Assembly (NCBI GenBank): GCA_037447655.1
Contig: JBBHKE010000589.1
Coordinates: forward strand, 310,001 to 374,000
DNA length: 64,000 nucleotides
Reading direction: 5' to 3'
From: Zygnema cylindricum
Lineage: Eukaryota > Streptophyta > Zygnematophyceae > Zygnematales > Zygnemataceae
Shown here piece by piece: positions 5,924-64,000 of the stretch. Below the pieces are notes generated by a model, which saw nothing but the letters and a program-made list of their open reading frames with translations, was not told the DNA's origin and did not search any database. The stretch's first letter is position 1, and each line of letters opens with the position of its first letter. A program made the position numbers and the translations under genes.

Positions 5924-5938
5924 GGTTATGGGCCCACC
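5924..5938 (+). other. Primer-binding site, half-tRNA initiator-Met type
   Basis: The sequence directly after the LTR is GGTTATGGGCCCACC. This is the complement of the anticodon-loop and stem region of plant initiator tRNA-Met, not of the tRNA 3' end. Drosophila copia is known to use the same site (GGTTATGGGCCCA) with a cleaved 5' half of initiator tRNA-Met as primer. The gag start codon ATG (5928-5930) lies inside the site. Confidence 0.85.
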
Positions 5939-6848
5939 CTCTAGGGTACCAATATTTAATGGAATTGGCTTCATATACTGGGAAAGTATGATGATAGGAG
6001 CTCTATGCGAAAAAAGGTTTTGGGGGATAGTGAGTGGACGATTCGGGCGTCCATCAAGTCTTGGAATTCCTCCAGGGTTTAAAGAAAGCAGATTCACCAG
6101 GAAAGAGGATTCACCTTCAACGGAGGAAACAAATGAAGGAGAGGTGGTGGACAAAGGAAAGGAGAAGGAAGCGACCACACCAATAGCAACTGGTTCAGCA
6201 TTCATGTCACCTATTCCGAGGAACGAGTACAATGATACTGAAACCTGGGACTTCAACAATATGGCGGCAAAGCACTTCATCCTACGCCATCTCACTCAAG
6301 GCCTTGCATGTCCCCATTTGCAGGTAGAAAGGGCATCCGATCTTTGGATGGCTCTCATAGAGATGTACCGAAGTGGTACGATTCAGCAACAACATTTGGC
6401 TGATCAGAAAGTTAAAGAGTATGTATACAAAGGGGGAAATATGTTGGATTTTTGCAATGAACTTGCTACACTCTTCATGGAGTTAGAGAGTTAGGGAAAA
6501 GTTTTTAGTGATTATGAAAAGGTTAATTGTTTACTTATGAAGTTACCTAATGTGTTCGAGAACATAGTCAACCGTGTATAGGACTTGTCGGACTCAAGGT
6601 GGATATGGAACTCAGTGGTAGGGATGATTCTCGTTCGAGAGAATACGATTGAGATCCGAAGGGGAGGAAAGAGTGGCCAAGCCTTGGCAACAACGACCTA
6701 TTAGAGGAACAAAGATTCCCGGAAACCAGTCGAAAACTATGGGGGTAGGGAGCAGAAAAAAACAGGCTGATGAGTTCGAACCAAGGGCTCCCAAAGGTTT
6801 ATGTCATTTTTGTAAGAAACCGGGCACTATATGGCTGAGTGCAGTAAG
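5928..6848 (+). pseudogene. copia gag region with CCHC zinc knuckle, disrupted
   Basis: The gag part of the polyprotein begins at an ATG inside the primer-binding site. The UBN2-like capsid region is recognisable (DLWMALIEMYRSG, LADQKVKEYV, MLDFCNELATLF). A TAG at 6492-6494 interrupts it, another TAG lies near 6579, and later gag sequence continues in shifted frames. A nucleic-acid-binding zinc knuckle CHFCKKPG-H-YMAEC (C-x2-C-x4-H-x4-C) lies at about 6800-6844 but needs a one-base frame change between its second Cys and its His. Gag would normally package element RNA. This copy cannot make a full one. Confidence 0.85.
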
Positions 6849-9800
6849 CTAACCGAGCTTTGGTTAAAAGAGGGGCAGACCGGTGGTACCCCGAGAGGAA
6901 AGAAAAAGGCCCTTGTCACACAGGTACTTAAGGCAGAATCAGAGGAAGAAGACGATCAACTCTTTTTGGATGAGGAGTTGGAGGAAAAAAATGAGGTTGA
7001 AATTCCACGAAGGCAGAAATGTGCTTACACTGGATTGAAAGGTGAAGCAGGCTGGATTATAGATTCAGGTGCCTCCATGCACATGTGTAAGGATAGGCAC
7101 CTGTTCACTAAGATAAGAAAGATTCCTACCGTAGAGATAGAGTACGGGGATGGGAGGATAGTCACCACTACTCTTGTAGGATCGATAGATCTGAAAGTGT
7201 TAGTAGAAGGAAAGACATCCATATTAACATTCTTCGATGTATTGTTTATTCCGGAGCTGAACAAAAACCTTATCTCTACATCAGTATTAGATGATAAGGG
7301 TTTTTTCACTAGCACTAGGGAAGGAGTCTTTACTGCTAGTTTTGAGGAGGATGTCTATTTCATTGCTGAGAAAGGTAACCATGGGATGTTTAGGCTGATC
7401 TTAAGTAATGAAACGAAAAAACTTTATTATGTTGGTGTTCATGATATTATGATGTGGCATAAGAGGCTTGGGCATGTGAATCTAGACAAGTTAAGAGAGA
7501 TGAAAAAGATGGGAGTGGTGGAAGGGATTAAGTTTAGTGAGAGTGATAATATAAGTGATAAGAGTGGGTGTGCTCAAGGTAAAACACTCTGATTACCCTT
7601 TTCTAAAACAGCCACCTATAAAGGAGAATAAATTCTAGATCAAGTACACACAGATATTTGGGGACCGGCTAGAGTACCCTCACCGGGGGGGGAAGAGATT
7701 TATGATGACTATCACTGATGATTGGTCTCGGTATTCCCGAGTGTATTTTTTGAAAAACAAGTCCGACGCTCAGGATTGTTTTAGACAATATAAAGCATGG
7801 AGCCAAAAACTCCATGAAACTCCAATCAAGAGAATAAGGAGTGACAATGGTGGAGAGTATACTTCTAACCAGTTTGAGGATTTTCTGAGGGAAGATGGGG
7901 TCCAACACCAAAAGACAGTTCCACAAAAACCCGGAACAGAATGGGGTAGCTGAAAGGTTAAATAGAACACTAAGTGATAGTGCTAGAAGTATGTTGTCAG
8001 ATAAGAAGATAGGAAAAAGGTTTTGGGCAGAAGCAATGAACTATGCTAATTACCTCAAAAATAGAGTTCTTACTTCAGCTATAAAAGATCAAACACCTTA
8101 TGAGAGATGGACAAGCCGGAAACCAGACATATCTCACTTAAAGGTTTTTGACAGTCAAGTATTTAGTCTAGATACAGATCATTCTAATTGTAAGCTAGAT
8201 CCTAAACGAAAATCGGGATACTTATTAGGATATGATGAGGATGTTAAATGATATAGAGTTTATGATCTAAAAACGGAAGATATAATCTTTGTAAAACATC
8301 TAGTAGTTATGGATGAAAGAAAGTCTGTGGATCCCTTCAAATATGCAAAGTCATTAAAAATCAGATTTGAGTCAGAAAATTCCGATGACATTGGGCTTCC
8401 TAACTATCCAGGTTTTAGAGAAGATGACATTCTTGCAGGTACAAATCAGACTGAAAAGGACTTGGCTGTGGAAACTCCAGTGACAACTCTACCCGAAGCG
8501 GAAGACGTGGTGGAAATTGATTCAGAATCAAAGGATAGGGGAGAAGCCGAGTTTGTTGGAAAGAATCCACGAGAACCATCTATTTCGGCCTCTGATTTGA
8601 AGGGGGGAAGGAGAAGTAGCAAAAGACTGCAAGAAAAACAGATTAATAACAAGGTAACTAAACTATCTCATCAAGATGAACCTCAAACTTATGGAGAGGC
8701 GATGACTTGTCCAGAAAAAAATCGGTGGAAGATAGCCATCAATGAGGAGATGGCCTCAATTATGGCAGCCGATGCTTGGGAGCAGGTGGATTGTCCACCT
8801 AACCGAAAACCAATCGGTTGTAAGTGGGTTTTCAAATTAAAATTGAACCCAGATTACACAATCGAGCGCTACAAGGCCCGACTAGTGGCAAAGGGATTTA
8901 CACAAAAGGAGGGAATTGACTACGAGGAAACCTTTGCCCCGGTGGTCAGATTTCCCTCCGTCCGCATACTTCTCAGTTTAGCAGCAGCGGAAGACATGGA
9001 AGTGCATCAGATGGACATCAAGAAAGCCTTTTTGCATGGAGAATTGGAAGAGGAGATCTTCATGCGACAACCCGAATGATTTGTGGAGGAAGGAGAGGAG
9101 AGTAAGGTATGCAGGCTGATTAAAACTCTTTATGGTTTGAAACAGGCGCCTCGACGATGGAATAACAAGCTTGATGTGTTTCTTACCGGTCTGGGATATA
9201 TTCGAATCAGCTCAGATCACTCAATCTATATTTTCGAAGATGAGGAAGGTTTTTTATTTATTGCAATTTATGTTGATGATTTGCTTGTTTTAAGTAAATC
9301 AATAGAAAAAATTAATTAATTGAAAACCGATCTTAAACGGAGATTTGAAATGAAAGATATGGGAGAAGCAAAATATATTTTGGGAATTCAAGTAGAGAGA
9401 GACCGAAAAAGGAAAATTATAAGACTCACTCAAAAGGAAGCAATAGGGAACATGCTTGAAAAATTTCAATTGGATAAAGCTAATAGTTGTACAACTCCAA
9501 TGGAGTTTAAGAAGGGAAGTGAGGAAGAAGGAGTCATAGTCTTAGACGAGGAATTATTTCCTGAAGAATAGAAGTTCATGCAGACTATTCTTTACAGGCA
9601 AGTAGTGGGAAATCTAATCTATTTTATGAATTGTACCCGGCCGGATTTAGCTGCAGCAGTAGGAGTGCTGAGTAGAAGTCTAAATGCTCCCACTAAGAAG
9701 GATTGGGAGGCAGCTAAGAGAGTCCTTAGATATTTGATAGGAACTAGGGATATATGGTTGCATTTGGGTGGGGAGAATACAGACATCACTACTTGGAGTG

Positions 9801-15400: not shown

Positions 15401-16370
15401 TACAGATCTGACGCTCAGATTATAAGCTTGAAAAACTCTGACGAACGCTCGCACGAATTCTACAGTTAAAAAAAGGGAAATCTTTGACGATTTTCAATAT
15501 CTAAACACAAGCCTGCGTGGTGCCACCCAAAACAACGCGCCTCATGGTCAGGTGACTGTACTTTTCTGAAGCACGACCTTTTCCTCGCGGCTGTTTACGT
15601 GTCGGAAAAGTTTTCTTCCCTCAGGACGACACGTATGCTTTTTTCATGGAAAAAAAGGTTTTAAAACTTTTCATGCGAATCCATTAGATTCCATTCTTTC
15701 CCTAAAGTACACGCGTGACAAACTGAGTAGTCCGCCCAACTCGCAATCGCGCCAATCAGTGAGCTTCCGCGTGTTTATTTTTTCTGTGCGTCGCAATTTG
15801 CTGTCAACCTGCACTTCACCAAAAGTACAGTACCTTTTCCGCCACATTGTGCGCACTAAAAGGACAATAAACAGCTTCAGTGCGCCGTGCCTCAGCTTTA
15901 TAGTTGGCATCAACTGAAGGAACCGTGACAGTCGCGTTGGCGACTTGCTGGAATCCAAAATGGCGTCGCACCGAAGGCTGCTGTGGGAGCTGACGCAAAG
16001 GAATTCTAACAATGTTGTCGTTTTCGTAGGACGCCGAAGGTTTTTGTTTGGGATTTTCGTCGGACTACTTGTCACCGGTGGGCAGGCTCTGCAAAATAAT
16101 AATAGCTTTGCAGAGTAGAATAGATACTAGGACTTTTATGGAGCCTAGGGATTCTTAGTTACGTTTGTCACCCGCTGAAGCATCGCTGAGTGAGTCAATT
16201 TAACAATGTAAAGAGAATTTTGAACCACCAAACTAAAGGTCGACCGAGGCTGCCGCAAAACACGGAAAACAAACACTGCTTCCTCGCATGCGACAAAACG
16301 CATTAAAGCTCGCCATTGGAAATAATGCCAGCCAAATAAAATACTAACGCAGCTCCGCGACTCTACTAAC
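12486..16370. other. Gene-free region with MITE remnants
   Basis: No coding sequence I can support. It contains one complete TIR element (14355-14550) and an isolated right end of the same family at about 13391-13418 (GCTAATAACGATTGGCGGTG). A minus-strand open stretch at 15671-16075 has no recognisable motif. The last few hundred bases should contain the upstream region of the alpha-2-macroglobulin gene. Confidence 0.5.
14355..14550. mobile_element. 196-bp MITE, perfect 22-bp TIRs, TA target
   Basis: Left end CACCGCCAATCGCTATTAGA(GT), right end its exact inverse, flanked by TA (14353-14354) and TA (14551-14552). No coding capacity. It belongs to the family also seen at 27944, 29876, 42487 and 51973. 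The TA target and short TIRs suggest mobilisation by a Tc1/mariner-like transposase. Confidence 0.85.
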
Positions 16371-19300
16371 TCACCTGCCTTGCCTTTCCTTTTGGCCTCT
16401 CTGCCTTCAAATGCTTCTCACGCTCTCCTCTGATCGCTGCTGTCCTGTGGCCCGTCCTTCTGTTGACCCTATTGACTTTGTCGTTTTGTTGCACAGTCAT
16501 TATACAGGGCCTGTTGGCAACAACTGACAGCTGGACCGCCCATCATCTCATCAGCTACGATGATGGCAAAATAAGGATTAGAGACATACCTGAATGGAAT
16601 GATGCCATAGGTGGAGAGGATGGTGTCAGAGGGAGAGAGATAGAGAAAGTGAGAAGGAGAGAGAGAGAGAGAGTGAGAGGGACAGAGGATACAACAGTGC
16701 CAGATGGAGAGTGGGGGGCGCACCACGCGGCCCTCCTCAAGGCCAGAGTGTCTGTCCACGTGGCAACAGACAAGGAGGTGTACCGGCCCGGAGAGACCCT
16801 ATTTGTGCGAGCTGTGGTGGTGCCCATGGCAGGAGACAATGCGCTGGAATCGGAACATCCAGATGGTTCAATCGATCCATGGATCCCTTGGATCCGTGAG
16901 GAAATTTCCATGGAGTTAACGGTGAGAGAGGAAGCACTGTTTGTTCATTTGATGTTGCCTCACTCACAGGGAATGGATTGTTTTCAAAAATAGTGTGGCT
17001 GACCTAAATGTGCGGACCAAACCTTTACATGGATGAAATTGGTCCGTATGGAAATTTGTCATTAACCATTGTGGATAAGGTATGTTTGGACATTGCACTA
17101 TAACTAGTGTGGTGCACTGTTTTTGTTGTATTGGTTTAGTCACGATGGTTAAGAGAAGCGAAGAATTGGATCAATTGGGAGTGCTTCTTGATTTGAAGGC
17201 GTTGAGTGCATTTAATGAAAGAATCAAGGATGCACTTTTTGTTTCAAGGAAAGTGGCTACCGACGCACTAATCTTTCCGTTTGGCTTCATGGAGAACACT
17301 TGTCCGATGGTTCCTTTCAAATGGTTCCAGCAAATGTAATGTGTAACTCCTCACGAATCTAGATCCGAATTTTGATTTGGATTTGAATTCGATGGTTTTT
17401 GCTTCTTATCTGTGGATTATAATTTTCGGACAGGTTATTTCTGCGGAGGGAGATCATGTTCAAGAAAGCGAGGCCATGCCTGTAAGCGATTGGCAGATTT
17501 CTTTTCAGTGGCCCATTCCAAAGGACATCAGTGGAGGAGAGTATACTCTCCAAGTCGGTGCTTCGGGTAGAAATATACATTTTCCTGGAGGAGAACGCAA
17601 GATCCAAGTGTACAAGTTTCGGAGCAAGGCCCTTCTGATTACCGTTGACTTTCTCGAAATCGGATACGGTCCAGGTGACCACGTTGCAACCAAAATTAGT
17701 GTGGCTCGGGCCAAAGGAGGAAGGCCTCCTTCCGGGACTGCTGTGACGATGGTCCCCAAAATTGACGGCTCCACCTTCCTGTCTGATGCCATGGCTTGCC
17801 AGCTGGACGAGGAGGGAGAATGCCATGTGGACTTCTCTCTCCCTAAATTTATGAGAGAAGGAGTGGGTGTTATCACAGCTGCGGTACGAGATGGAGGGGT
17901 TGTTGAAAGCGTCAGCAAGACGATTCCCATTGTACTTCAGGTAAACCCAGGTGGAGGAAAAAAATAGAACTGCATCTAAAACGTATTGAAAAGATAAAGG
18001 ATAAGAAAGAACATTGCCTAAATCTTACTGGAAACAACTGAAAATGCCCTGTTACCGCTCTTGATTGCTTTCCTGCGGCTCATTTTGCAGGCCTTGGACT
18101 TGAGACTGTATCCAGAGGGAGGCCCTTTAGTCGAGGGTGTCGAGAATATGGTTTATTGGGAGGCATTGAGTCCCACGGGGGAGCCATTGGAGGTCAAAGC
18201 AGAGCTTTGGAGCACAGGACAAAATGGTCCTCTCCTAGTTTGCCAGCTGGCGGCCCATCACGAAGGCCGAGGGAAGTTTAACTTTACTCCTTTCCCCGGA
18301 CGAGAATACGAAATCCATATTCTGAAACCTTCTGGTGTTGCAAAGGCCATTCCACTACCTCCCGCGGAAAAGGAGGGACCTGGAGGAGGAGAGGGAAGGA
18401 CATTTCCCCTAGTGGCTCTCTCGCTTTTGGAGAGAGAAGCAGGAGGACCGCAGGTCAAGCCGGTGCGTGTACGAGTCGAGGGGATGACACCTGGCAAGGT
18501 GAGGGTGGCTTTGTTTTGGAAGGAAGTACAGCTGGAGAGTGTGAGCGTGGAGTTATCCGGGAATGGTGAGAGTGGTAAGATGACGTCAGAGGTGGTTTTG
18601 AAGACAGAAAGAGCTCCGAGCCATGGAGGCGTGGGAAGGGTGACTGTCTTTGTGGAAGATTCCAAGATTCCCATTGCGGAGAGATTGGTGTTTTTACAAC
18701 CAAGAAAAATCATCCATGTGGAAGTTCGACAAGCATCTGGGAGTGCGGGAGAGAGAGCATATCCAGGAGCTCGGGAGGCACTGGAGGTGGTAGTGAAGGA
18801 TGAGGAGGGCAAAGGGGTAGAGGGAGCAATAGTGGGGCTGGTCGTTAGCGATCGGAGTACAGGAGCCATGGTAGAGGAGAGGAAGAGAGCGCCTCGTCTT
18901 CCAGAAATGGTTCTACTGGAAGACGAGGTAGAACACTTGGAGGCTTCGGGGGAGTACTTGCGGGGAACAGATAAAGATAAGGAATCCATGGATTTGCTGT
19001 TGGGTACGCAGGGATGGCGGAGATTTGTATATTCCGAGCCTCTCAAGAATTTGGGTGTTGGGAAACATGGGGAGACATCAGAGGTTGTCGAGGAGGAGGC
19101 GGCGGGTGAGGAGAGCACTAAGCGAAGGAGGAAGTTTGAAAGAATGATGGTCTTGGCTTTGAATCTCAGTTTTGGTGAATTTCGCATTTTAGATGAAGCT
19201 GAAGGTGGTCAATGGTCAACAGACGAGTCCGAAAGCGCTGAGAACGTAGTCTTTCAGTCCGCCGATATAGCATCTTCTGAGGGGTCTTTTGTGTCTGATG

Positions 19301-21444
19301 CTCAAGATTTTCCTGAAGTATTCATGCCAGAAGATATTGAGGAACGCAACATAGTCGTGAAAAAGTTGGATTTCGCCGATGATGAAAAAAAAAACAGGGA
19401 AAGTGATTTTCCCATATGGGACCGCATGGACAGGTGGAGAACAGCGCGTCAGTCCACTGGAGCAGTTCCTCAGGAGTTTTTTGATTCTGATGCTCGAGTA
19501 CTTCCTGGCCCAGGCATGCCGGAAGGCATTCAGGAATACAAAAAAGAAACGGAAATGTCTGAGGACTTGGATTTTGCCAAGGTCGAACTTGACGGCCCTC
19601 CAGTTTATCAAATAACATACGACCGTATATATGCTTATAGAAAAGTTGAGAACGGTGGGAAGGATGTCCGGCAAGACTTCACAGACACCGTCTTTTGGGC
19701 TGCTGCACTTGTCACGGACAAGCAAGGGGTGTGTAGACCACCTTTCTGCCTTGATCTCTTGCAAACCTCTTCATTCTCACTTCTGTCCTATCAGCATTTG
19801 TTTTTCACTGTAACGTGAAATTCGTCAATCTTTCTATATCTTTTGCCCATATTTCTTTCACTGTGTTTTGCTGACAATTTTTCCCATGGGCTCAACCCTC
19901 TTTCCAAAACTTTGAGGGCTTCCTGAAAGTTAAAACGCACCTTGTTAACCCATTTCTCTGTTGGTTCAGATCGCTCGCGCCGAGTTCGACTTGAGCGACT
20001 CTATCACGTCTTTTGGGGCACGAGCCGATGCCCACTTAGTGTCCCGCACAAAAGCCTCCAATCGAGACAAGCCATGGCCTTTGGCCTTCGGTTCAAGCTC
20101 GGAACAAATCATCACCTCGGGAAAACCATTGACAGTGGATGTAAAGGCTCCTCTGGAGCTGACAGCTGGCGACAGGGTGGACCTTCCTATTAGCATCGCG
20201 AACAGCGTTTCTGAGAATTTGCTTATTCGCCTCAATTATTCTGTACAAGGCGCATTGCAAAATGTTGGGGTAGATGCTGGTGAGGGGACACCAAAGGCTG
20301 TGCAAGCAAACATGCAAATTCGACATTTTATCAGTCTCATTGCTAAATCGCGACCGGAAATTTCCAACGGGGATGCTCTTGTCTCGGAAGGCAATGTTAC
20401 AAATTTTGGGCAGATTGCTGTGGACATAGAAGGATCCTTTGAAGAAGGAAAACAGGGTCTCGTACTCCCGAACCTCCCTCCCTTGCGGGATGCTGTTATT
20501 CGCCCAGTACTGGTGTCGCCTGTAGGTTTTCCATGGGAAATTTCATATGGAGGGAGCATTGAAGTGAATCAGGTGGCAAGTGGAAGGGATTTTATTATTT
20601 CAGAATCCATGGTGGTAAGGGAAAATGCGGAACCTTTTTGTTAATTCTTCTCAAGTCCATGTTGATAAATGAAACAAAGAACTGAATCGCTCATTTGTCC
20701 AGCATAGAAAGACATAAGTGTCAATAGCATTCATATCAATCCAATTGAAATTATTGGTTGTTGCAATGATTTTGTTGTGGGTGTAATAGGTCACCCCTAT
20801 GCCAAAATTCTCTTAATTGGTTTGTTATCGATTTCTAATTGAATCGATATAGGATATTTCGCTTTGTTTGACCAAGGACGGCCTTGAAATGGAAGATGTT
20901 TTGCCAAAATATACAGGAATTCCGAAAAAAAAAAAAAAAAAAGTCATCCCCACCTATTTGCGAATCTATGAATTCCATAATGAGAAAGAAAAAATCTTGT
21001 TTAACAAGCTTTCTAACCTCTAGGATTTTGGCCGATAAACATTCTTTAATGAATTTCTTTCCAGAATTGGCACATAGACATTCTAGAGTTAAAGAAACTA
21101 TCTCGTGGCCTGACTTTAATTTCTGCTGTAGCTTTATCCATGGCTGGTACAATTGCTGGTGAGGTTGGGTAGAATGGATCTCTATCCATGGCTGTTGTCC
21201 TCTACCCCAGCCCTCTTGCTAGCTTATCACACGCTATAGAGGCCCTCATTCAAGAGCCTCACGGATGCTTCGAGCAAACCAGTGCAACGGTCTATCCCAA
21301 TATCATGGTGGGTCCTCCAGCTCTTAACACCAGTCAGGGTACATTTCTTGTGTGCACAATACTGAACTGTTCTGCCTTCTTGACGTCATTAGAAGCAGAG
21401 CCGTTGTGTTTTCAAAGACAAACTAGTATGCTTGAATTCACTAT

Positions 21445-21485
<41 letters not shown>

Positions 21486-24400
21486 AAACACACACATGCA
21501 CATGTATTTAACACACACACAAAACACACATGGACATACTCACATATTTATATTCATAATATATGTATGCATGTCCACCAGTGCGTGACTCGTGTTGTCG
21601 CAAATGCAGGCACATTTGTACTTCAAGAGCCACAAGACCAGTTCGGAGATAGTGGATCGCTCCACAAAGATGTTGAAGGAGGGCTTCACTCGACTGCAAA
21701 CGTTTGAGATTGGAGAAAGCGGCGGCTTTGAGTGGTTTGGCCAATCCCCAGCCAGCGAAGCACTTACGGCATATGCTCTCATGGAATTTACAGATTTGGC
21801 AAAAGTTTACCCGGTTCCTAAGGTTCTTTACCCCTTACTTTTCTCCTCCCTCTTTTCTGTCTTGGATGAAGGTTCAAGGAGACGAAAATGTCTCAGTTCT
21901 ACTGTCAGTTCCAATGTAATATTGGTTAACCTCAAACAGTACTGCTCTTCATTAAGCAAAATGGATCTGTGCTGCATTTTCACTTGGATTAAGCTTCTCC
22001 CTCCCTCTGTTTGGCCCCACAGCCCCTTCTCCAGCGCGTGGCTGCATGGCTGGCGGCGCGACGTGACGATTCGAGACGCTCCTTCCGCCTCGAGCAAGCT
22101 CACTCGGATGGATTGTCAGGGGCGCCAGAAAATGTCACATTGGCATATATTGTGTGGGCCCTGGCGTCCGCAGGATATACACAGGTGTGCAAACTTCCCT
22201 CGTCTCTTTTCTCACTAACGGGGTGATGTAGACAAGTTTGTATGTACTGGGGGTCTGTCCACGTCTTTACCGTTTGTAGAAAAAATCAATGTTTTCTACT
22301 GTGTCCTTTTACTTCTGTGCATTCTTAGTGACGAAAGATAGTGTTGGCCATAAAATAAATCCTCAATATCTGGTTTTCCTTTCTCCTCCTTTCATCATTC
22401 TCCTCCTGTCTTGCAGGACATTGCACTCCAGCTCCAGAATGTGCGGGAAACAGCAGTGGCTGGCAAGGATCCCTACCTTCAAGCTCTGGCTGCCATATCT
22501 CTGTACCACAGCGGGCAGAAAGAAAAAGCGAAGCCGTTGGCTGACGCTCTCCGCTTGGCGCAACGGGCGGACGGTTCTGTGCACGGATCCGTTACGTCAA
22601 TCACACGGTCCACAGGGGAGGAGCTGCTTGTAGAGACCACCAGTCTGGCTCTGCTGACGTGGCTGGAGGAGTGGGAGCATTTTAAGGAGGTGGGAGAGAC
22701 AGCCGTCAGCTGGATTTTCTCCCAATGCCAGGGGGGCTCCTATGGCTCCACTCAGGCCACTGTGCTTGCTCTCAAGGTATGCTTTTGGACCCTTGTATTG
22801 TCGACTTCCAGTTTTTTCTCCACAGAGATTTCCAGATTCTGGCAGTTCCGTTTTGCTCACTTGGACCAAACAACGGCATTAATGTGATTTATACTATCGT
22901 TGATCAAATTCTCGAATTTCAGTTGTTGAAGTACATAATTTAAACTAGTGCATATGCACCAAATCTGGGAAAGTTGGACCGTTGCCAGTGTGGATTCAAT
23001 ATCACAACCCACACTAGTAACCGTGGACAGCAATGTGATGATGTAGGCTCTTCTTGCTTATAATGACAAAATTCGCGATACAACGGCTCCCAATGGCACT
23101 GCTACGTTGTCGGTGAATGGCGATAAAGTTGCGACGGTGGAAATTAAAGGTCGGTCAGAAACTCCATTGATTCTCCAGCTTCCAGAAAGCAGGGCAAGAA
23201 ATTTGCACGAGGGGAGAAGGCACAGGATGGAAGTGAGCATGGAAGGAGGCTTCTCCATGCCCTATACAGTACAGGTCAGTGTTGCAGTTTTAGTCATACA
23301 AATTGGTGAATGAGAATGCAATGACCAGGACTTTGGAGCTGCCTATGGGTGGATTTTATGAGGTTTTAGGTCACGTCGCCGTATTGCCAACTTTTAAGTG
23401 GATGAAATGGTTGCTTAGAAGGATGCAGTCGAAATTGTCTCCGACATTGAACTGAAACATGTCAAATGGACATCAAATGTCGGAGACGATTCTTGCATTA
23501 TTTGTGACTGTCCTGTAGACTCTATTTTGGAGGACATTACTATGAAATGCGAGATCCGATATTAAAATTTCATGTTTCTAAACAAAAAGCATTGACCAGA
23601 AAATATACTGGTCTTGACATTGGACATCAAACATTGGATCGAATTTTAGAATTTTATCATCAGACATTGGACACTGGAAGCTGGACATGGACCACTAGAC
23701 ATCAGACCTCAGATGGACTGGAAACTACAAATTGAAAATCGGAAATTGAAATTTAGACATAAGGCATCCGACGCTAGCCAAAATCTCATCATGAGGATTG
23801 TTCTAGATTGGACACTGGACAATCCTTCATCAGGTTTTGACTTCATGGGACAAGATCAATTCATCAGGTTATGGAAACCAATAAATTACTCGTCTCAAGA
23901 AAAAGCTAGGTTTTGTGAGATTCTGCGTGAAAAATAATTAGGTTGTGTACTGTGGGATTATGTACCTCACACTCAGTTATCTCGGCTTCTTTTTTTTAGG
24001 ATAATTCGTATGTTTTTGCTTTTCTGCTTCAAATAGAGGTCTTGCATTATGTAGATGCAAGCACCCTTGTAGCTTTAATAACACCAACTTTGGTTATTTA
24101 GAACCACATTTTAACCAACGTTACTACACAAGTAAATTCAATTTTTTACACCCATTAAAAGTTTCACAGGCACAATTTCAACTAAACCATTTTTTTTCGG
24201 TTTCAGATACTCTATCGCAAGATCCAGCTGATGTCATCTCCCGACTCTGCAGTCCACCTCACAACGGAACTCACAAACACAGATCTCGCGGAAGGAGACC
24301 TTGCTGACATCATCATCAGACTCTCCAACAAATTAGACCGCCCTCTCTTCATGGTTCCTCTCTTCCCCTCTTACTCCTTTCCTCCCTCCCTCCTCCCTTC

Positions 24401-36728: not shown

Positions 36729-36775
36729 TCTCTCTCTTCTCCCTCTTCTTCCTCTGTCCTTAAAGCTTAAGGTCA
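36215..36775 (+). promoter_or_regulatory. Upstream/5' leader of trihelix gene with CT repeat
   Basis: Region before the ATG at 36776. It contains a CT dinucleotide run at 36696-36738, common in plant 5' leaders, and pyrimidine-rich sequence from 36540. No TATA box could be assigned with confidence. Confidence 0.4.
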
Positions 36776-38116
36776 ATGGATAGAAATGGTTTGTTTCCTA
36801 TCAATCTTTCTGCACTTTTGCAGTTACCTTCTATGAACTTTCCATCGGCTCCAGTCATACGTCAGCCTGCGACAACCATATCAGATTTTGAGTTATTACG
36901 GAATTTTCCTGAAATTTTCAATAGAACGAATACCAGCCAACCGATAGACGTCAATCGTGCGAATATATTCGCAGCAGCATTAGCAGCGGCAGGACTAGGA
37001 GGAGGAGGATTAGGATTAGGAGGAGGAGGATTAGGGCTAGGAGGGGGAGGAATAGGATTAGGAGGAGGAGGAGGAGGAGGAGGAGGAGGAGGAGGAGGAG
37101 GAGGAGGAGGAGGAGGAGGAGGAGGAGGAGGAGGAGGAGGAGGAGGAGGAGGAGGAGGAGGAGGAGGAGGAGGAGGAGGAGGAGTTGGAGGAGGAGGAGG
37201 AGTTGGAGGAGGAGGAGGAGGAGGAGGAGGAGTAGGAGTAGGAGTAGGAGGAGGATTAGGGCTAGGAGGGGGAGGAATAGGATTAGGAGGAGGAGTAGGA
37301 GGAGTAGGAGGAGGAGGAGGAGGAGGAGGAGGAGGAGTTGGAGGAGGAGGAGGAGGAGGAGGAGGAGGAGGACCGGATGATACCGACAAAAAATGCAAGA
37401 AACCAAATTGGACTGAACTTGAAACTGAAACCCTAAATGAAGCCAAAAGGTTGGAATTTGAAGAATGTCAAAAACCGGGTTCAGAAGTTAAGTTTGCTAC
37501 TAGAGCTGAAAAATTTAAAACAATTTCGGGTATGCTGAAACAGGCAGGTATGGACCGAGATCCAATGGAATGCGATGGGAGGTGGCATCACATTTTGAAG
37601 CTCTACAGAAAAGTAAAAGAGTGGAATAGTAGAGTTGGAGTGGAGAATTATTTCCGGTTAAGCAGCAGAAAAAGGGGAGAGCATGATTTGCCGAGGGTGT
37701 TTCCGGAAAACTTGTACGAGCAGATGGATAAATGGGTAGGGAGGGCCGAGACTGTTTCTTCTCCGGATATTCCAGAAAAGGAAAAGGACAGAAAAACGTC
37801 AAACTTAGAAGCAAATGGAGTTTCCAACGGAAACGACAGTAAAGAGAAGGAGGAGTTTGGGGATGCGAGCTCAGGGAAGAAGAGGAAGAGAGTGGGAACT
37901 GGGCCTGTCACCGAGAAGGATTTGGAGATGCTGGACAATTTTGGAGCTATATTTGACAAGTCCTTTGAGAAAAATATGATTCACCAGTTGAAATGCCAGG
38001 AAGCTCTTCTTGAATCGGCCAATCATGATATCGAGAAGATGCTCGACAGAGTTGTTAGTAAAGCTGTGGCCACCTTCTCAAATAATGTAGAGAAGATGAT
38101 GCGGGGTCTTAAATGA
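36776..38116 (+). CDS. Trihelix (Myb/SANT-like) DNA-binding protein with poly-Gly
   Basis: Intronless frame of 446 aa from ATG 36776 (preceded by AAGGTCA) to TGA at 38114-38116. After an N-terminal hydrophilic segment, residues ~74-199 are glycine-rich with 41 uninterrupted Gly (GGA codons, 37061-37183). Residues ~210-285 resemble a trihelix/Myb-SANT DNA-binding domain, with spaced Trp and a basic third helix: PNWTELETETLNEAKRLEFE, MECDGRWHHILKLYRKVKEW. A KKRKR nuclear-localisation-like motif follows near residue 375. The C-terminal ~65 residues form a likely amphipathic helix (NMIHQLKCQEALLESANHDI), perhaps for dimerisation. Likely nuclear and DNA-binding. The targets are unknown. A domesticated-transposon origin is possible because such SANT domains also occur in Harbinger proteins. 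The Gly tract is repeat-prone and its length may vary. Confidence 0.8.
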   Translation: MDRNGLFPINLSALLQLPSMNFPSAPVIRQPATTISDFELLRNFPEIFNRTNTSQPIDVNRANIFAAALAAAGLGGGGLGLGGGGLGLGGGGIGLGGGGGGGGGGGGGGGGGGGGGGGGGGGGGGGGGGGGGGGGGVGGGGGVGGGGGGGGGVGVGVGGGLGLGGGGIGLGGGVGGVGGGGGGGGGGVGGGGGGGGGGGPDDTDKKCKKPNWTELETETLNEAKRLEFEECQKPGSEVKFATRAEKFKTISGMLKQAGMDRDPMECDGRWHHILKLYRKVKEWNSRVGVENYFRLSSRKRGEHDLPRVFPENLYEQMDKWVGRAETVSSPDIPEKEKDRKTSNLEANGVSNGNDSKEKEEFGDASSGKKRKRVGTGPVTEKDLEMLDNFGAIFDKSFEKNMIHQLKCQEALLESANHDIEKMLDRVVSKAVATFSNNVEKMMRGLK

Positions 38117-54232: not shown

Positions 54233-57200
54233 ATGGACACTATTCCTATCTCCCCCTCTGACATTCATGTGCTATTGGTCGACGACGAGCGTCTCTCGCG
54301 GCTTGTTGTGGGCAACCTACTAAGAAGATGTGGCTATCAAGGTAAGTTTTGCGTCCATACATACTCAAACTCTGTATCATCCGCCTGTATGTCCATCATG
54401 TTAGAGCACATATCCCCCCTTTCACATGTGTCACTGCTACATGAATTCAATATGAGCATCTAAGGCTGGAAACTGTTAATGTACAGATACGTCGAGCAAT
54501 AATTTAGCCTTTAAGGAACAGCTAAAAATCAATGCTCCATAGTTTCTAGCCTGTCATATCCTGGTTTCCAACCCTAACTGCTCCTGCTCACCATTTCACT
54601 AAACACAATTGCAATATTTCTGATCCGGCCACTGCAGTACAAATTTCCCCCATATATGTAAGTGCAGGAAATGGAGGTTAAGTTTGTGGATGTATTTGCC
54701 TCATGTTTGCAAGAACAAGGCCCTCGGAAAAGTAAAACTGTGTCAGTAATTGTTAACGCGAATAAGTCATACTGGAGTTCCTGTGTGAGACGAATTTGCC
54801 CTAATCTTTGATTATATCACTCAATTGATACTCCACAAAGTGCCGCGGTGAAGCTATTGGAATATCTAGTTAGTGCTTCCGTTTGCGTACCTTAGCATAT
54901 TGTAGAAAATTGTATCCGCGAAAACCGCTTTTAAAGGGTTAGTTGTAATGTGGTTCTGGTAAGTACATATAGTTCCCAGAAGTAACTGGAGGGTTGGGAG
55001 TGCCTTCCGGGAGTTTTGGCTGAGATGTGGAGCACCATATCTTCAACAGTCCAAGAAGACTTGTCAAAAAAGCTGACGTCAAGCAGGAGTTCTTAGGGTT
55101 CCTCCTTTTTTTGTCCTGAGAGTCGGTGAATTAGTAGTGAGGAAACAGAGAATTGTTACATGTCAGCTGAGTGGTTGATACCCTGGGGACTCTTTTGCAG
55201 TAACTGTTGCAGATGGCGGTCACGAAGCTTTACGAATGCTTCAAGAGAGAGCTTACAGTTTCAATCTGCTCCTCACGGTATGTGTTGCAATATACTTTCA
55301 CACCCGAGATCCTCTGATAGTAGTTGTGTGGTTCTCGAGAGATGGTTTAGGGTAGCAAGGAAGAACATTTCAAACTCATCAAAGTGAAATCCGTTTAGAG
55401 GACGAGATGTGGCCCTGAACTTGGAGCAAGAATAATCAGTTATTACCTTTGTTGAGGACTTGAGCCCAGATCTTGTTCATTCCCTACTTGCTTCTGTAAA
55501 GGCAGGTTTCAATGCGAAATCACTAGTCATTAGTCATGTTGAGTGGAAATCCTTATCTATCGACTTCCATACTATTGCATTAGAGACTTCTGATGCACAG
55601 CTCTTGAGATGGTCTAGTGGCCAGCTAGTATTTTAGTAAGCTTACCATTCATGTAAGTGTTTGCAGCAGTATTAAGGAAATTGGCCTCTTATTTCGGTGG
55701 AAAAAGAACCAGCATGTAAAAACATGAAGTTAGGAAGAAGGATTTAGTGGGGAGAACCACCGTCATTATGCTAAGTTGTCTATCGCCGATGTTGTTCACT
55801 TTAGTCAGTGAATCGGTGACAACCAGGTTTTTCATTGTTGCCTACTCCTATGCTTCCTTTCTTTACTCCTGCTTTCTTTTTTGTGACCTTTACATTATAT
55901 AATCTTGCTGGAGAAGGGCAATGGTGGTATAAATGGCAGGACTTGATGATGCCCGGAATCGATGGATTGCAGCTTCTTCGCTACGTGCGTTCAGATCGAA
56001 CATTGGATGCCCTTCCTGTTGTCAGTAAGTCATATATATCCTTTCTGCTCCATTGCGAGGCGATCCCACAACAAAAGCCGGTAAATCTTGTTAAGCCGAA
56101 GAGATTTTCGAAGGTTAAACTTTCAGAGTGTTGTTTTTATCATTGTTAAAGGCTGTTTACTCCAAGCCATGTGCCACATTTGTGTAGCTCATTTCCGTGC
56201 TCGCTCTTCAATCTGACATTGGTGTGACATCATGAGTAGCATGGTACTCGCACCGGTAGGCAATCATAAAAAACCAGGTTCGTCCGATTGCAGTTTGTTG
56301 GATCTTTCAATAATGATAGGGCTGGAAAATGTACATTCATTGATCTCCATAGGTCTGGTATTTTCGTGTCCAAAAGTCAAAATGCTCTGGAAAAGGCTGT
56401 TGGATGGTTCGTGGATGCACAAGTGAGAGCAGATAAAGCCAGCAGACCATGGCCTGTTGCTTATTCTTCGATTGCTTAACGTTTGATTGCCATTGTTCGT
56501 TTGCTGTGGTGTCCAGTAATGTCGTCCAATGAACACCAGCCTACTGTGGTCCAGTGCATTAGCAGTGGAGCTGAGGAATATCTTTTAAAGCCGGTCACAA
56601 AAAAGGAGGTTCACTACATCTGGCAGCACGTCTGGCGCCGTAGCCAGAACCTAATCCGACTTGCAGAAGGTCGTGTTCAATACGAGGTACAGTGTACATG
56701 CAAATTTCAAAAGCAAATGTAAAAATGTGAAGTCTGCACCATTGCTGATTGTTTTCTTCAGGTTAATTTTTGCTTAAGCTGCTATTGTTTGGATTTGAAC
56801 AATCAGGTGTCACAGGACTCTTTACATTGTCCTGTCAGGTTATGTCTTGGGGTACCAAATTTCTTAGTTGGCATTCATTACTTATTCATTGCTAATGGTT
56901 AAAGCCTGTGGATATGTTTATGCTTTTTGAGATGTCAACTTTATAAGGTTTTTGCCTGATATGGTTTGAAACCTTCTTGGATCCTCGCCTAGTAAGGCGC
57001 TCCACCTTTTTAGAAGTACTGGGTTTGTTTCCCTTTTCTTTTGGTCATTGATGGGAGGGCTAAAAAGTATTTGGTGTCTGATGCTTTTTCAATGGTTCCC
57101 AGCTTGTATGGAACTTCACATATCATTTTTTTGGATTGGTTTTATTTGTCCGCATAGTCAGATTCAATGTTTTAAATGGAGGGCGAGAGATAATCATCAC

Positions 57201-59308
57201 TTTAGGAACTATGATCTGACATGCTACTTCTTCGCTTTTTAGATTGCATCTTTATATTTACACCTATGTTTCGGTATGTTTATGTTCACTGCAGGCACAG
57301 TTATTGGCAAGTGGAACTGGGCCTTGGCCACAGCCTCAGAGCCTGACTCCTCTTATAGGGGCTCTCCAGTCATTGAGGTCTTCATCTGGGGTTAATACTG
57401 GGATCGAAGGTGGTTTTTTTGAGCGTCAAGCTGTGTCTTCTGGTGCTGATACTCGTCCCACTCGATCTGCTTCCTCTGGCGGTATAATGCACAATGCTGC
57501 TTTTTCTGAGGACACTAGTGGTAGAGGTGGAGGAGCTTCAAGAGGGATGCCTCCTCCTCAACCCCGATCAGATGGATGTCGCTCTGGTAGTGGACCGTTT
57601 CCATTAAGAGGTAGTAGAAGATGCCCTCCGGAGGTAGTCAGTGGCTTGGAAGGTCAGCTTGTTAGTGCGAATAACCCGACAGCTGAACATTTACAGAGAT
57701 TGGCGATGTCAGTTTTAGGGTGGGGTGGTTCTCTCCCTGGAATAGTGGCAGCTGGAGGGGGAATACCAGAGAGAGGTAATATGGGCTCTGCTGGAGATCC
57801 TACAGAGGATACTTTAATTGGTCCAGGAATGGGACCAAGTACTGGTGGGGGTCCAAGTACAGCTCCTACGCAATCAGGAGGATGTATGAGTCGAGGTGTG
57901 ACCTATTCTTCAGGATATGACACATGGCATACAGAGTCGAGAGGAGGATGGCGACCTAAAGCTGCTTCTACAGAAACTTTTTCAACGGAAGCGGGACGAA
58001 CTGTTACAGAAATGCAGTCACTTTCTGGAGGGGAAGGTTGTTCTGTTGGAGAAAAAGCTGGTGGATCGGGGCAGAGAGTGGAGCCTGGGAGGTTGATTGA
58101 AGGAAAAAACAGTCAGGGAGTGATGTCGGTTTTCGAGGGCAAGTGGGCTCAAACGGGGGGCTCTCTAACTCAACAGGATTGGGCAATGGGACCTCCAGGA
58201 GCGCCTGTTGAGCTTCACAATGTGAGAAATCAGAGTAGTCCTCAGGATAAAGATTCATTTCCTCTTCCTCTTCCTCATCAAGGTATAGGAAGTGGATTTG
58301 AAGCTTCTGGACGAGCTCCTCCAGAGTCGGTCAGATCACAGGGCAGATCACAAGGCTCACAAATTCCTCGACAAACCGAACAGCAAGAACAGGCGTCTTT
58401 AATGGGTCGAGAGCAAGGAAATGATGGTGTTGAACAAGCGCAGTTACATGAGTTGCCCCAAACTTCCTTGCCCAGAAAGAAAAACCAGCATCAATATGGG
58501 ATCAGGCCTCGGAAGCGGGAGTCTTTATCCGAACAGCTGATGAAGCAACACCAGGAGCATGATTTGTGGCGTCAAAAACAGCAGCAGCAATTGGAATCAG
58601 AGGCGTTAGAAATGGCCGCAAATTTGCAGGAGACTACCTCGTCTTTACCGACAGATCACCGGGAAGATGCAGAGAGACCCAATTCAGAGAGACCCCATTT
58701 AAGTGCAGAGAGACCCCATTCAAGTGCAGGGAGACCCCATTTAAGTGCAGAAGCGGAAGAGTTTCGACCTGGAGAGGCGTCTGGAGGTCAGATGTCTCTG
58801 GATGTAGAGCATATGTCTTTGTTACCTCAGCAATTGGATGTGAAACGGCAACAAGCATGGACTGCTGTTCAACAAGAACAGCAAGAGTGGGAAGAGGCAA
58901 AACAGCAATTGCTGAAACAGCAAGTGGCACAAAGGCATAGGCAATGGGAGAAGCTACAGGAACAAGAACTTCAGCACGGGTCGAGCTCCCTCCAGGAAAG
59001 CGCACTATCTATGCCTAATCAAAATTGGCAGGTTCAGCCACAGCAAGAGATGAGGCAGTTGAGTGAAATTGATTTCCAGAAGCAACAGCAGGAATGGGGG
59101 ATGCGGATGTATCAGCAACAACAGGATCATCAACAGCAACATCTGCGACAAGAAGAGCAAAATTGGCAAAAACAGGAAGAGAAACAACAACAGCAACAAC
59201 AACAACTACAGCATCAACAACAGCAGAAGTTACAGCAGCAAAAGCAACAGCAGTTGCAACAACAACAACAACAGCAACAATTTCAACAGCAGCAATTACA
59301 ACAACAGC

Positions 59309-59345
<37 letters not shown>

Positions 59346-59347
59346 GC

Positions 59348-59429
<82 letters not shown>

Positions 59430-62400
59430 CCAACAACAACAACACCAACAACAACAACAACAACACCAACACCAACAACAACAACAACAGCAACAGCAAC
59501 AACAAGAACAAGAACAGCAACAAATGCAAAAACAGCAACAGCAACAACATCAACAACAGCAGCTACAGCTGGAGCTGCAACTGCAGCAACAGCAACATAA
59601 ACAACGCCAACAGCAGCAAGCCCAATTCCAACAGAAACTACACCAACAACAACAACAGAAACATCATTTACAACTACAACAACAACAACAAGCGCAAGAA
59701 GAAGAAGAAGTAAAACAAACACAACAACAGCAGCAGCAAGAGCAACAGCAACAGCAACAACAACAATTGCAACACCATCAGCAAAAACTACTGCTACAAC
59801 AACAGCGACAACGTCACCAGCAGCAAACCATTATGCATGCTCGACTGCCTGATTCAAATACTGTGCAGTCTTGGGAACTCGCGCAAGGGAAGCAAGCCCA
59901 GCCATTTTCCAATGAGGGTTCCAAGGGTTTGCAGCATTTTAAGGTACAGGAACTGGAGGGAGAATCTATGCCAGAGAAGAGGGAGACAAAAACTAGGCAA
60001 GTTGCTGAGTTAAGAGCGGCTGGCAGTGATGCAGAGCATCTGTCTGATGCTGACGTGGCGACAGGAGAAAGACTGATTTGGAAAAGACAAATACAAAGCT
60101 CGCCGGGAGACCAAGTCTGGGCTGTCCAAGAGAAGCAGTTACATAGATTTAGAGGGACAAAATCTGAAGAACAAGCAAAGAAAGAGGCGTTGGTTGAGGA
60201 TGAAAGGAGGCAATACTTAATTCAGCAAGAACATTATCAAAGGGCACAATTGACACACCATCAGAGACTCCTTTTGGGACAACGGGAGCAGCTTTCACCG
60301 CAGTCAAGTGGAGAGGGGAATCAACAGCAAGACTTTTCACCGCCCCAGATTCAGGAACAAGAGAATATGTTGTCGTTACTGAGACAACAACAATTGGAGA
60401 TGGGACATGTCCGTCAACTTACACTGGGAAGACCTCTGGAATCTGGAGGGCAAATGCTGGGCCTTCCCCTCTCAGATGATGGGGACGATGACCAAAGCAT
60501 CGAAGGTGAAGAAAAAGCAGAGGAAGAAAGTGTTGAGGTCAGGAAGAGAGACATGGAAGAGGGAGCTGCTGTACAAGGAGAAGGAGAGGAAAATGTACAG
60601 GCGAGATTGCAAGTGGTTCGAGAAGTAGAGGTTGCAAATGAATGTTCTGGAGAGGAGATGGGCGGGAGAGCACAATCTTGTAAGCCACAGGATTACATGC
60701 AGGAGAAGGGTGAAGGTGGGTCAGTTGGCCGCTTAGAAGAGGGTGGAGGGAGGGTGCTGGTACGGAGCCCCTTTCTTTTTCCAGGGAAGGCAAGATCCGA
60801 GGGAAGGAGAAGCAATTCTGCCTCTGGGAGTGCACAAGTTAGCAATGATGAGACGAAAGTAACAAAGGGGCACAATAGATGGAGCAAGGGTTCCATTGAT
60901 AGAGTTGTGGTTGATCATTGGAGTCCAGAACGAGTGTCAGAAATGGAAGAGAAGAATAGTCCAAGGGAAGAGAGGAAGCGGACAGAGGAAGGCGTTCATG
61001 TAACGGAGGTAGATGTAGAAGTGAGAGGTGTTTCTCAAGTTGCTGGGAGAGAAGGAAGACAAGAATTGGAGTCTGAATCAGTGCAAAGAAGAGCAGCTCT
61101 TGGTCTTTCTCAAGGTCCAGGAGGTTCTTCAGGTGTGGGGACCCAGGGAAAAATGACTCTGAGAAAATGGTTGTGTAGACTGGATAGGAAAGTAGATAAA
61201 GTTGAAAGTCTTCATATTTTTTGGCAAATCGCAGACATGTTGGAACTTGCTCATTCTGGAGGCACAATCCTCCGCAATGTCCTACCATCGTGTTTTATGT
61301 TATCATCTTCAAACAAAGTCAACTTTGTTGATCCTGAAATTGAGGCTAGGAAGGTAGCTGAATTTGCTGCTGTAAACGATCCCATAACTTACTTGCAAGA
61401 AGGGACAGGAGAGCCTGGGACAAGGTCAAGAGCTCATGGGAGAGGAAGGGAAAGGTCGGTTGGAGGAGTTCATGTTCCAGCTATGTCAGCTGATGCTGCC
61501 CCTTCTGTTTCAGGCTTTCTGCAAGGAGGAAGGGAGGACAGAGAGGATAGAAGTAGGTCTAATATGTGGTCACGGAGGCCATCAGGTACAGATACCGAGG
61601 AAGGAGTTAATCAACGTCAAAATCAAGGTGGTGGTCCGAATATGTCTTCAGTATGGTTGACTGGAGGAGGATTGAGGAGAGAAGCAGGGCAGGTAGGTGG
61701 TGAAGCTGAAAGGTATGGGAGGAGAGGACATGGTACTTCTTTGAACGGAGAAAGAACTTATGTTTCTGACCGGTCTGAGAATCAGAGGACCGGAATGGAG
61801 TTAAGACCTGTAAGGACAGGTGTCTCTCAGGGTGATGTCTATCTGCAAGGTCCTTCCGATAAAACTACAGGTCCAGCTGAAAACATACAACATGAAATTG
61901 GAGTGGAAGCAGGGGCACTGGTAGCATTTAGAGAGTCAACGACAGGGAGGGCAGGAACAAGGAATGGGGAGGAGATGGCTGATTTGAGGCAAGCGGAGAT
62001 TGATGAACAAACTTGGTATAGGACACCCGAAGAGTTACAAGGAGGAACTATAACGACAGCTTCAGATGTCTATAGATTAGGAGTGCTTTTCTTTGAGGTG
62101 AGAATTTCTCTTTCTGTGGCTATTTCCCACGAAACCATAGTAAAATATTAGTTTGTGAAAAGTTGTTATATCTTACAGAGGACAATTGTCAACTAACACG
62201 TACAGACTTTGCGAGGCTCATGGTTGGACGGGACTGATTATTATATTTAGTGGTTCATAAACAATTCTGAATGGTTTGGCATCCATATTCATTGCAGTGT
62301 ACTGATGTTTTTCCAGCCAGTTTCAACATTAAAATGTTGTCGAGTTTCTTTCTGCTTCCCTTTCTTTTATTTGTATGCTTTGGGTAACTCATTATATCGT

Positions 62401-64000
62401 CGATACTCAGTTTTTCTATGCTGAGTCAAGCTGTCTTTTGCTGTTCTGCGGTGATGATGGTTTGTTCCCTTTACTTTTAGGTAAGATTGATTTCTCACAG
62501 AACCGCAGATTGATAGTTGAAGTTTTGCTCCTAACTTGAGGTTTCCCGCCTCCTTCCGTTCTTTTTACAGCTTTTTTGCCCATTTTCATCCTCATCCGAG
62601 CGTGGGAGAGTCATGTCAGACCTTCGCCATCGCATTCTTCCTCCACGTCTTCTCTCAGAGAGCCCAAAGGAGGCCGGTTTTTGTCTATGGTTACTTCACC
62701 CGGAACCAAGTGCTCGTCCAAAAGTCAAGTAATTTGCTGTTCCTTCCTGTTGGGAACAAGGTTTTGTTTTGTTAATACCTGAGGGATGGTTTTGATGCTG
62801 TGAATGGGTTGTTGTCACAGCATTTAAGAGTCTATCACATCAGGATATTGGCGCCTCCTACTTCTGAGTATTCATAGTGGTTTTTTACGGTGAATTAGGT
62901 CCGTGTGCCCAGTGGAAGGCACCTAATTGGGGAAAACTTTATTAACATAACTGTGGATTGGTGACGCATAGGTAGCTTGCTACAATCAACACTATCAGTG
63001 GTGAATGTTCTTCTAGGTTCCACACTTGTTTCTGACAATTTGAGGCATTTCCGTTTTTCTTCTCGTCTAAACCACGGAGTGGCACAGACACCGCAGAATG
63101 TGAATCATGCCATTGTTCAACAGCTAGTGCATTTTTTGACCTTCGGTTTAATGTCTTTTAGTTGAGTGGTCAAAAATCTTATTCCTCCAATCTTTTTTTC
63201 GTGTTCTGGTCTTTCATGGCCTTGGGTAGCCAGTACACTTCTTGCCGCCTGTTTGGAAAGACCTCTTCCCATGACAGCTCGGTTTTTGCTTTAGGTTAAC
63301 AATATCGTCGGAATACTTCTTGTCAATCTACCATTCCTTTCCTTTAATTTGTGCCTTTTTTTTTACAGGGATGTGCTCTCCAGTGACCTTCTTAGTGAGG
63401 CAGGAGAGGCTCTTGCCCAATGGCAAGCCGCGGTGGACATGGAGGAGAAGGAGGCAGAAACAGAAGCAGAAACAGAAGTACTTCTCGATTTCCTTCTTCA
63501 TATGCACAGACTGAAACAGGAGGCTGCGGCACGATTGACTGTCGACCTTTCCAGACTGAACTCAGATATGGAGGAAGTGAAGAAGAGGAGACAGCAGTTG
63601 CTTGCATGTTCTGGAGATGCGAGAGGGAGGCAAGCTGTAGTCACAGGAGAATTGTCTGGAGGTACTCAGGGAAGTAGGGATGGAACAGGGGGAGGTGGAG
63701 GTGGAGGTGGTGATGGAGGTGGAGGAGGTTTCTTTTTCCGACATGGAAGAGAAGGAAGGACGGCGACCCAAGAGGATTTACAAAAAGGTGAAGGAAGGAA
63801 GGAAGACAATCGGCAGATTGTGGTTTTAGGAAAGCGACTGAGGGAGGAGGTTGATGACGATGATGATGACGATGATGATGAAGAAATGCAAGCGAGGGAG
63901 AGAGAGAAGAGGGCTAAGAAAGTTAGCAAGATGGGACGACCAATGCCGATGCAGCAAACACGTCAACAACAGCAGACAGTCGATGAAGGAAGAAGGAAGG
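54233..64000 (+). CDS. SPA: Receiver domain-SPA fusion, 3' end beyond window
   Basis: Exons 54233-54341, 55201-55277, 55940-56024, 56517-56686, 57295-62097, 62571-62728, 63369-64000+ join in phase from ATG 54233. Residues 1-147 form a CheY-type receiver: acidic D17/D18, phospho-acceptor D63 ([10 protein letters not shown]), S93/S94 and K115 (YLLKPV). It ends IWQHVWRR, a mark of clock pseudo-response regulators, but keeps the Asp those proteins have lost. Residues ~580-1010 are Gln-rich, with 43 consecutive Gln at 816-858. From ~1434 comes a SPA-type degenerate kinase domain: [43 protein letters not shown] (no HRD), then [52 protein letters not shown] coiled coil follows ([20 protein letters not shown]). 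SPA proteins normally end in WD40 repeats and partner the COP1 ubiquitin ligase. That part would lie past 64000. A two-gene reading is possible if the 56687-57294 intron is not real. Confidence 0.88.
59299..59427 (+). repeat. CAA/CAG repeat coding 43 Gln
   Basis: Uninterrupted glutamine codons, mostly CAA with a few CAG, in the large exon of the receiver-SPA gene, continuing as His-interspersed Gln to ~59830. Poly-Asn and poly-Thr frames and antisense Val/Leu frames over it are shadows. The length is likely variable and may be mis-assembled. Confidence 0.95.

Follow-up and report, generated by a model that had tools for sequence, protein, structure and literature searches.

SPA proteins are usually treated as combinations of a kinase-like domain, a coiled coil, and WD40 repeats. 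In land plants (SPA1-SPA4; the SPA1-related 3/4 protein of Marchantia, P0001), a kinase-like C-lobe, coiled coil, and COP1-type WD40 domain occur in this order. For Chlamydomonas, a published study (PMC6736836) describes that SPA1/COP1 restrains CONSTANS (CrCO) and the photoprotection proteins LHCSR/PSBS, that UVR8, SPA1, and COP1 co-immunoprecipitate, and that a spa1 mutant and photoprotection read-outs exist. Here, an SPA gene of the streptophyte alga Zygnema cylindricum was analyzed in which the SPA order is predicted to be preceded by a response-regulator receiver domain. The gene starts in a stretch of 64,000 nucleotides (assembly GCA_037447655.1, contig JBBHKE010000589.1, also handled as G000:C446, positions 310,001-374,000, forward strand), which is referred to as the window.

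Seven exons in the window, all with GT-AG borders, could be spliced into a single frame of 2011 amino acids with 0 stops, in agreement with the initial annotation, which had joined a receiver to an SPA protein through seven such exons. To cover the region past the window, another two pieces of 10 kb were taken from this contig, the first one sharing 1 kb with the window, and the WD40 exons in this region were located by tblastn with four SPA proteins. The full gene comprises 11 exons and encodes 2454 amino acids; exon 7 ends at position 64611, exons 8-11 lie beyond the window, and the stop is at 67038 (window numbering). The predicted protein, whose C-terminus reads ...GNIKLLEMV, consists of a receiver (residues 13-123), a Gln-rich linker of approximately 1300 residues, an SPA kinase-like C-lobe, a coiled coil, and a COP1-type WD40 domain. 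The analysis confirmed the receiver-SPA fusion as one predicted gene. Since the same receiver heads SPA parts in 41 algal proteins and in a Mesostigma model, a gene-model accident is very unlikely.

The receiver is encoded by four exons on the + strand. Exon 1 (54233..54341; donor GTAAGT) contains the start codon, receiver beta1-alpha1, and the acidic pair D17 D18, exon 2 (55201..55277; acceptor TTGCAG, donor GTATGT) the middle of the domain (VTVADGG...LLLT), exon 3 (55940..56024) the phospho-acceptor D63 (DLMMPG), and exon 4 (56517..56686) the receiver end with S93, K115, and IWQHVWRR, all at the positions originally assigned to them. The Pfam family Response_reg matched with 92.1 bits (E 3e-26) and the closest solved structure was 8xat (E 5e-23). 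All five active-site residues (D17, D18, D63, S93, and K115; DDDSK) are complete, and the same five were found in 41 of 42 relatives; the exception, P0171, reads DD-SK in a model that lacks the corresponding stretch. Type-B response regulators (ARR1) share both DDDSK and the best structure match 8xat. However, the output part of the Zygnema protein is a ubiquitin-ligase partner, whereas that of ARR1 is a DNA-binding domain.

The description of this receiver as 'clock-type' in the initial annotation turned out to be misleading. Clock PRR/TOC1 proteins do share its WQHVWRR-type end, but identity of the window receiver to the SPA receivers P0121-P0160 was 54-67%, as compared to 33-48%, over pieces, to receiver+CCT and type-B-like loci of the same genome. 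At residues 110, 118, and 120 (and at 19 where the compared rows have a residue), the window receiver agrees with the SPA receivers and differs from the four PRR/type-B rows compared. Based on these identities and residues, common descent of the SPA receivers, including that of the window, is favoured. Membership of PRR/TOC1 was rejected: the genome gave 8 CCT matches, none of them on contig C446, and the C-terminus of the protein is a WD40 domain rather than a CCT domain. In the receiver tree (158 columns), whose topology is in line with such descent, SPA receivers grouped together (support 66/42 when Mesostigma was included and 74/95 when it was left out). P0171 and P0153 were omitted from the receiver trees, and P0210 and five histidine-kinase rows also from the second tree. 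As proof of descent, the receiver tree was set aside as too weak, given these values and p-AU of 0.13-0.26 in the approximately unbiased (AU) tests discussed below.

The remainder of the protein carries the SPA parts. Exon 5 (57295..62097, +) encodes the low-complexity, Gln-rich, and probably disordered linker and the start of the SPA kinase-like domain. A poly-Gln tract was read by eye at approximately 59200..59560 (+) in the linker, and Pfam scans of linker pieces listed no further family, with the nearly all-Gln residues ~758-992 outside the scan. Block 1 of the kinase-like domain (61153..61332, +; MTLRKWL...VNFVD) lacks the catalytic-loop Asp by comparison with the kinase HRD and DFG motifs. 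At E values of up to 1, it aligned with 125 of the 127 SPA-body matches, a set that consisted of 120 of 516 matches listed and 7 new ones from a search for long SPA-body proteins (10 matches in total). The first part of the C-lobe lies at 61996..62097 (+; TWYRTPEEL...), and the domain continues in exon 6 (62571..62728, +; ...LHPEPSARP); exon 7 (63369..64000, +, and on to 64611 past the window) encodes the coiled coil, a linker, and the WD40 start. C-lobe and coiled coil showed 68% identity to Marchantia SPA over 99% of the region (E 3e-62); in another comparison, identity was 66% for these two and 72% for the WD40 part. The WD40 domain, which lies just past the window end and could not be seen whole from the window, matched COP1 structures (7vgg, E 7e-116), so that the protein carries the COP1-type C-terminal domain of an SPA. 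The Marchantia protein, at 928 amino acids, lacks the long linker. The listed Pfam families included no RING (in the case of the WD40 part, the list held the best 25 of 34, and residues ~758-992 were outside the scan).

Features of an active Ser/Thr kinase, namely an N-lobe with catalytic Lys, HRD, and DFG, were not found. The kinase match covered a C-lobe stretch only and remained under the Pfam cut-off (31.1 vs 31.7 bits), and LRNVLPS stands where an HRD-type catalytic loop is expected. Because only the C-lobe matches and LRNVLPS replaces the usual catalytic loop, the kinase-like part probably serves as a pseudokinase scaffold. For Arabidopsis SPA1, kinase activity has reportedly been published. 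An AlphaFold model of the algal relative P0124, based on 26 sequences, had a mean predicted local distance difference test score (pLDDT) of 78 and a predicted template modeling score (pTM) of 0.49. In this model, receiver blocks of residues 41-150 reached pLDDT 86-97, followed by a helical, C-lobe-like part that had few strands and no N-lobe-like sheet, and a beta-rich C-terminal domain; the top PDB matches were COP1. Its long helices (411-475 and 503-540) support the predicted coiled coil that separates the kinase-like domain from the WD40 part and that was also recognized by conserved alignment.

A search with the receiver only, limited to proteins of ~800-2545 amino acids, gave 84 matches. 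Forty of these (P0121-P0160) had Pfam calls for Response_reg as well as WD40. The 41st receiver-SPA relative was P0171, whose receiver is shortened, and the other 43 were mostly of the histidine-kinase type. By BLAST, the segment order was that of the window in 41 of 41 algal relatives. Named sources included Coccomyxa, Elliptochloris, Trebouxia, Tetradesmus, Botryococcus, Parachlorella, Chlorella, Micractinium, Cymbomonas, Chlamydomonas eustigma, Volvox, Gonium, Pleodorina, and Astrephomene (the record labels Mesvir1, Botrbrau1, and SM... were read as Mesostigma, Botryococcus, and Spirogloea). Some of the relatives are named 'Response regulatory domain-containing protein' in the database, while many are hypothetical or nameless. 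The green-algal proteins, in Coccomyxa, Trebouxia, Chlorella, Volvox, Cymbomonas, and others, share domain order and DDDSK with the Zygnema protein but are all shorter (901-1647 amino acids), and the SPA body of the latter is nearer to land plants. Twelve similar relatives (P0135, P0137-P0146, and P0149) have a receiver and WD40 with the kinase-like stretch unaligned, which may reflect a separate loss or gain of that part. The Mesostigma model (1380 amino acids) combines a receiver, a Gln-bearing linker, and an SPA C-lobe, which places receiver-SPA in both green branches. The search for the same order in relatives thus showed the arrangement to be common in green algae and not, in all likelihood, new or local to Zygnema.

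Land-plant SPA proteins had been stated to lack a receiver, and this held for those sampled: a receiver profile match was obtained for only 1 of the 127 SPA-body matches listed, the Mesostigma model, and was absent from the other 126. Named members of this set are land plants, except for Mesostigma and Spirogloea-type labels. A body tree was built from 65 rows, comprising the window, the 28 of 40 algal matches in which C-lobe and WD40 both aligned, and 36 of the 127 SPA-body matches; its label 'EMB' includes nameless rows taken as land plants, and P0171 and P0210 were left out. In this tree, the window was sister to 32 land-plant-labelled rows (97/92), and the 28 receiver-bearing algal rows formed one side of a 100/99 branch. 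With the window beside land plants and receiver-bearing algae across this branch, vertical descent with later loss fits. The recurrence of the arrangement in many green algae points to receiver loss in land plants. In the simplest reading of these comparisons, receiver-SPA would have been present in the green-plant ancestor, kept in chlorophytes, Mesostigma, and Zygnema, and lost in the land plants sampled; some other streptophyte lines may also have lost it, unless their gene models missed it.

Elsewhere in the Zygnema genome, one SPA locus, namely the gene described here, and a candidate COP1 that has both RING and WD40 were found, together with HisKA matches (41 on 35 contigs; these are matches, not genes). 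Two separate PRR-type receiver+CCT loci were observed (G000:C2393 and G000:C1485; L031 and L032). The phospho-Asp is retained in one of these (TDVVMP) and replaced by Glu in the other (AEVELP), so that the earlier statement that clock PRRs have lost this residue applies to the latter and not to the former. The active-site strings of these loci are EDDSK and --ESK, the first exon of the latter not having been recovered, while a type-B-like receiver of the same genome reads DDDSK. Paired loci with near-equal scores (COP1-type WD40 on C628/C2265 and C2631/C2059; type-B-like receivers on C1003/C1411) represent either uncollapsed haplotypes or recent duplicates.

Taken together, the initial proposal was partly supported. 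The explanation that we consider somewhat more probable than its negation is that Zygnema retains a single streptophyte-algal SPA gene in its ancestral form, with a phosphorylatable receiver that feeds COP1/SPA and that was dropped in land plants. In such a mechanism, histidine kinases would phosphorylate D63 directly or via HPt carriers, and the receiver, once phosphorylated, would alter the contacts that SPA makes with COP1 or substrates by its coiled coil and WD40. Ligase output would then follow a phosphorelay signal besides photoreceptors (in Chlamydomonas, this output is repression of both CONSTANS and photoprotection genes), and the receiver would later have been dropped in land plants. 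The D63 receiver is most likely a working aspartate switch that feeds phosphorelay signals into COP1/SPA; control of a COP1-type ligase by phosphotransfer, as had been suggested for this gene, is inferred. A wider proposal is more tentative and falls somewhat short of an even chance: the COP1/SPA ligase of green plants would have begun as a direct His-Asp phosphorelay output, with an aspartate switch on SPA gating light responses and photoprotection in green algae, and land plants, by deletion of the receiver, would have rewired it so that only photoreceptors act on it.

Several observations weigh against the favoured explanation, and three alternatives were considered. The kinase-like stretch did not align at E 1e-4 in 15 of the 41 algal relatives, and the Mesostigma receiver is divergent, in a model without a WD40 call. 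A genome search for HPt gave no match or candidate, although exon-by-exon reading may miss short HPt exons; this result counts against a phosphorelay route via HPt. It would fit a receiver that serves as a protein-interaction module only, its fold kept for docking and its acidic residues for stability or metal binding, with phosphorylation irrelevant. The receivers of flowering-plant PRRs work without the phospho-Asp, the Glu in one of the two receiver+CCT loci of Zygnema offers a parallel, and the WQHVWRR-type end is common to the window receiver and PRRs. A pure docking domain should, however, lose some active-site residues, as the receiver+CCT loci of the same genome did, whereas all five were kept in 41 of 42 relatives even though identity drops to 54% among P0121-P0160. 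We therefore regard docking without phosphorylation as unlikely, though deserving of consideration.

Two neighbouring genes may instead have been misjoined, with a receiver protein that ends at ~56722 and a separate SPA that starts from the ATG at 57487. If intron 4 is retained, the receiver frame indeed stops at 56722, and the donor of this intron, GTACAG, departs from the consensus; the donor GTACAA is however used by this gene where it encodes the conserved WD40 domain. The head of exon 5 ahead of the first SPA-side ATG (57295-57486) is stop-free and has coding-like codon statistics in the SPA frame, in which it had its top score (0.20, vs a maximum of 0.05 in 1522 overlapping non-coding windows). 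This outcome favours fusion over the separate SPA start that had been named as a refutation, but it helps only a little: the codon test is weak because two reverse frames of the same stretch (2 stops each) scored 0.14, also above the non-coding maximum, and the receiver exons scored only -0.05, inside the non-coding range. P0124, P0126, P0131, and P0134 lie on contigs of 3.0-3.7 kb that barely exceed the frame and are transcript-like by appearance. The main ground for rejection is the same order in 41 algal proteins, and we consider two misjoined genes very unlikely. There is likewise a slim chance that a PRR-like or type-B-like receiver joined SPA recently and in the Zygnema lineage only, apart from the chlorophyte fusions. 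P0020/P0021 and P0027/P0028, which fall with streptophytes and have no receiver, would agree with such a capture, unless they represent either poor models or further losses, and a placement of the window receiver with PRRs (p-AU 0.13), type-B receivers (0.21), or both (0.26) was not rejected by the AU test. The occurrence of a receiver in Mesostigma also, the closer identity to algal SPA receivers than to the PRR-type and type-B-like loci of Zygnema, and the residues that follow the SPA-receiver pattern argue against it.

Other features of the window lie outside this gene. Alpha-2-macroglobulin pieces at 16370-22887 (+), with MG2 below, A2M at, and the TED domain above the cut-off, perhaps form one multi-exon gene, which is unexpected in a green alga. 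Retrotransposon pieces at 5898-9079 (+; gag_pre-integrs, Pol_BBD, and RVT_2) are of the Copia type. On the - strand, 708-2549 contains a DDE_1 transposase piece (708-1355) and a neighbouring frame outside the Pfam scan (2001-2549), which we take to be perhaps a pogo/Tigger-like element. A Gly-rich protein with a Myb/SANT-like DNA-binding domain is encoded at 36764-38116 (+).

SPA proteins and receivers are each well known, and their union is visible in database names; the mechanism that links them is proposed here. No description of an SPA receiver was found in the open literature searched, which excluded the Chlamydomonas papers Gabilly 2019 and Aihara 2019, and none is mentioned in the excerpts of PMC6736836, PMC8775618, PMC12558739, PMC10286513, PMC5749748, PMC9166400, PMC7925916, and PMC12445801. 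A receiver is expected in SPA1 of Chlamydomonas reinhardtii, whose own sequence was not recovered here, from its presence in Volvox, Gonium, Pleodorina, and C. eustigma; with its spa1 mutant and photoprotection read-outs (PMC6736836), Chlamydomonas makes the idea directly testable. If the ancestral SPA was a response regulator, two-component signalling and COP1-type degradation would form one machine in green algae. Land-plant SPA would then be a reduced version, and its missing receiver a loss to consider alongside how light signalling was rewired when plants moved onto land.

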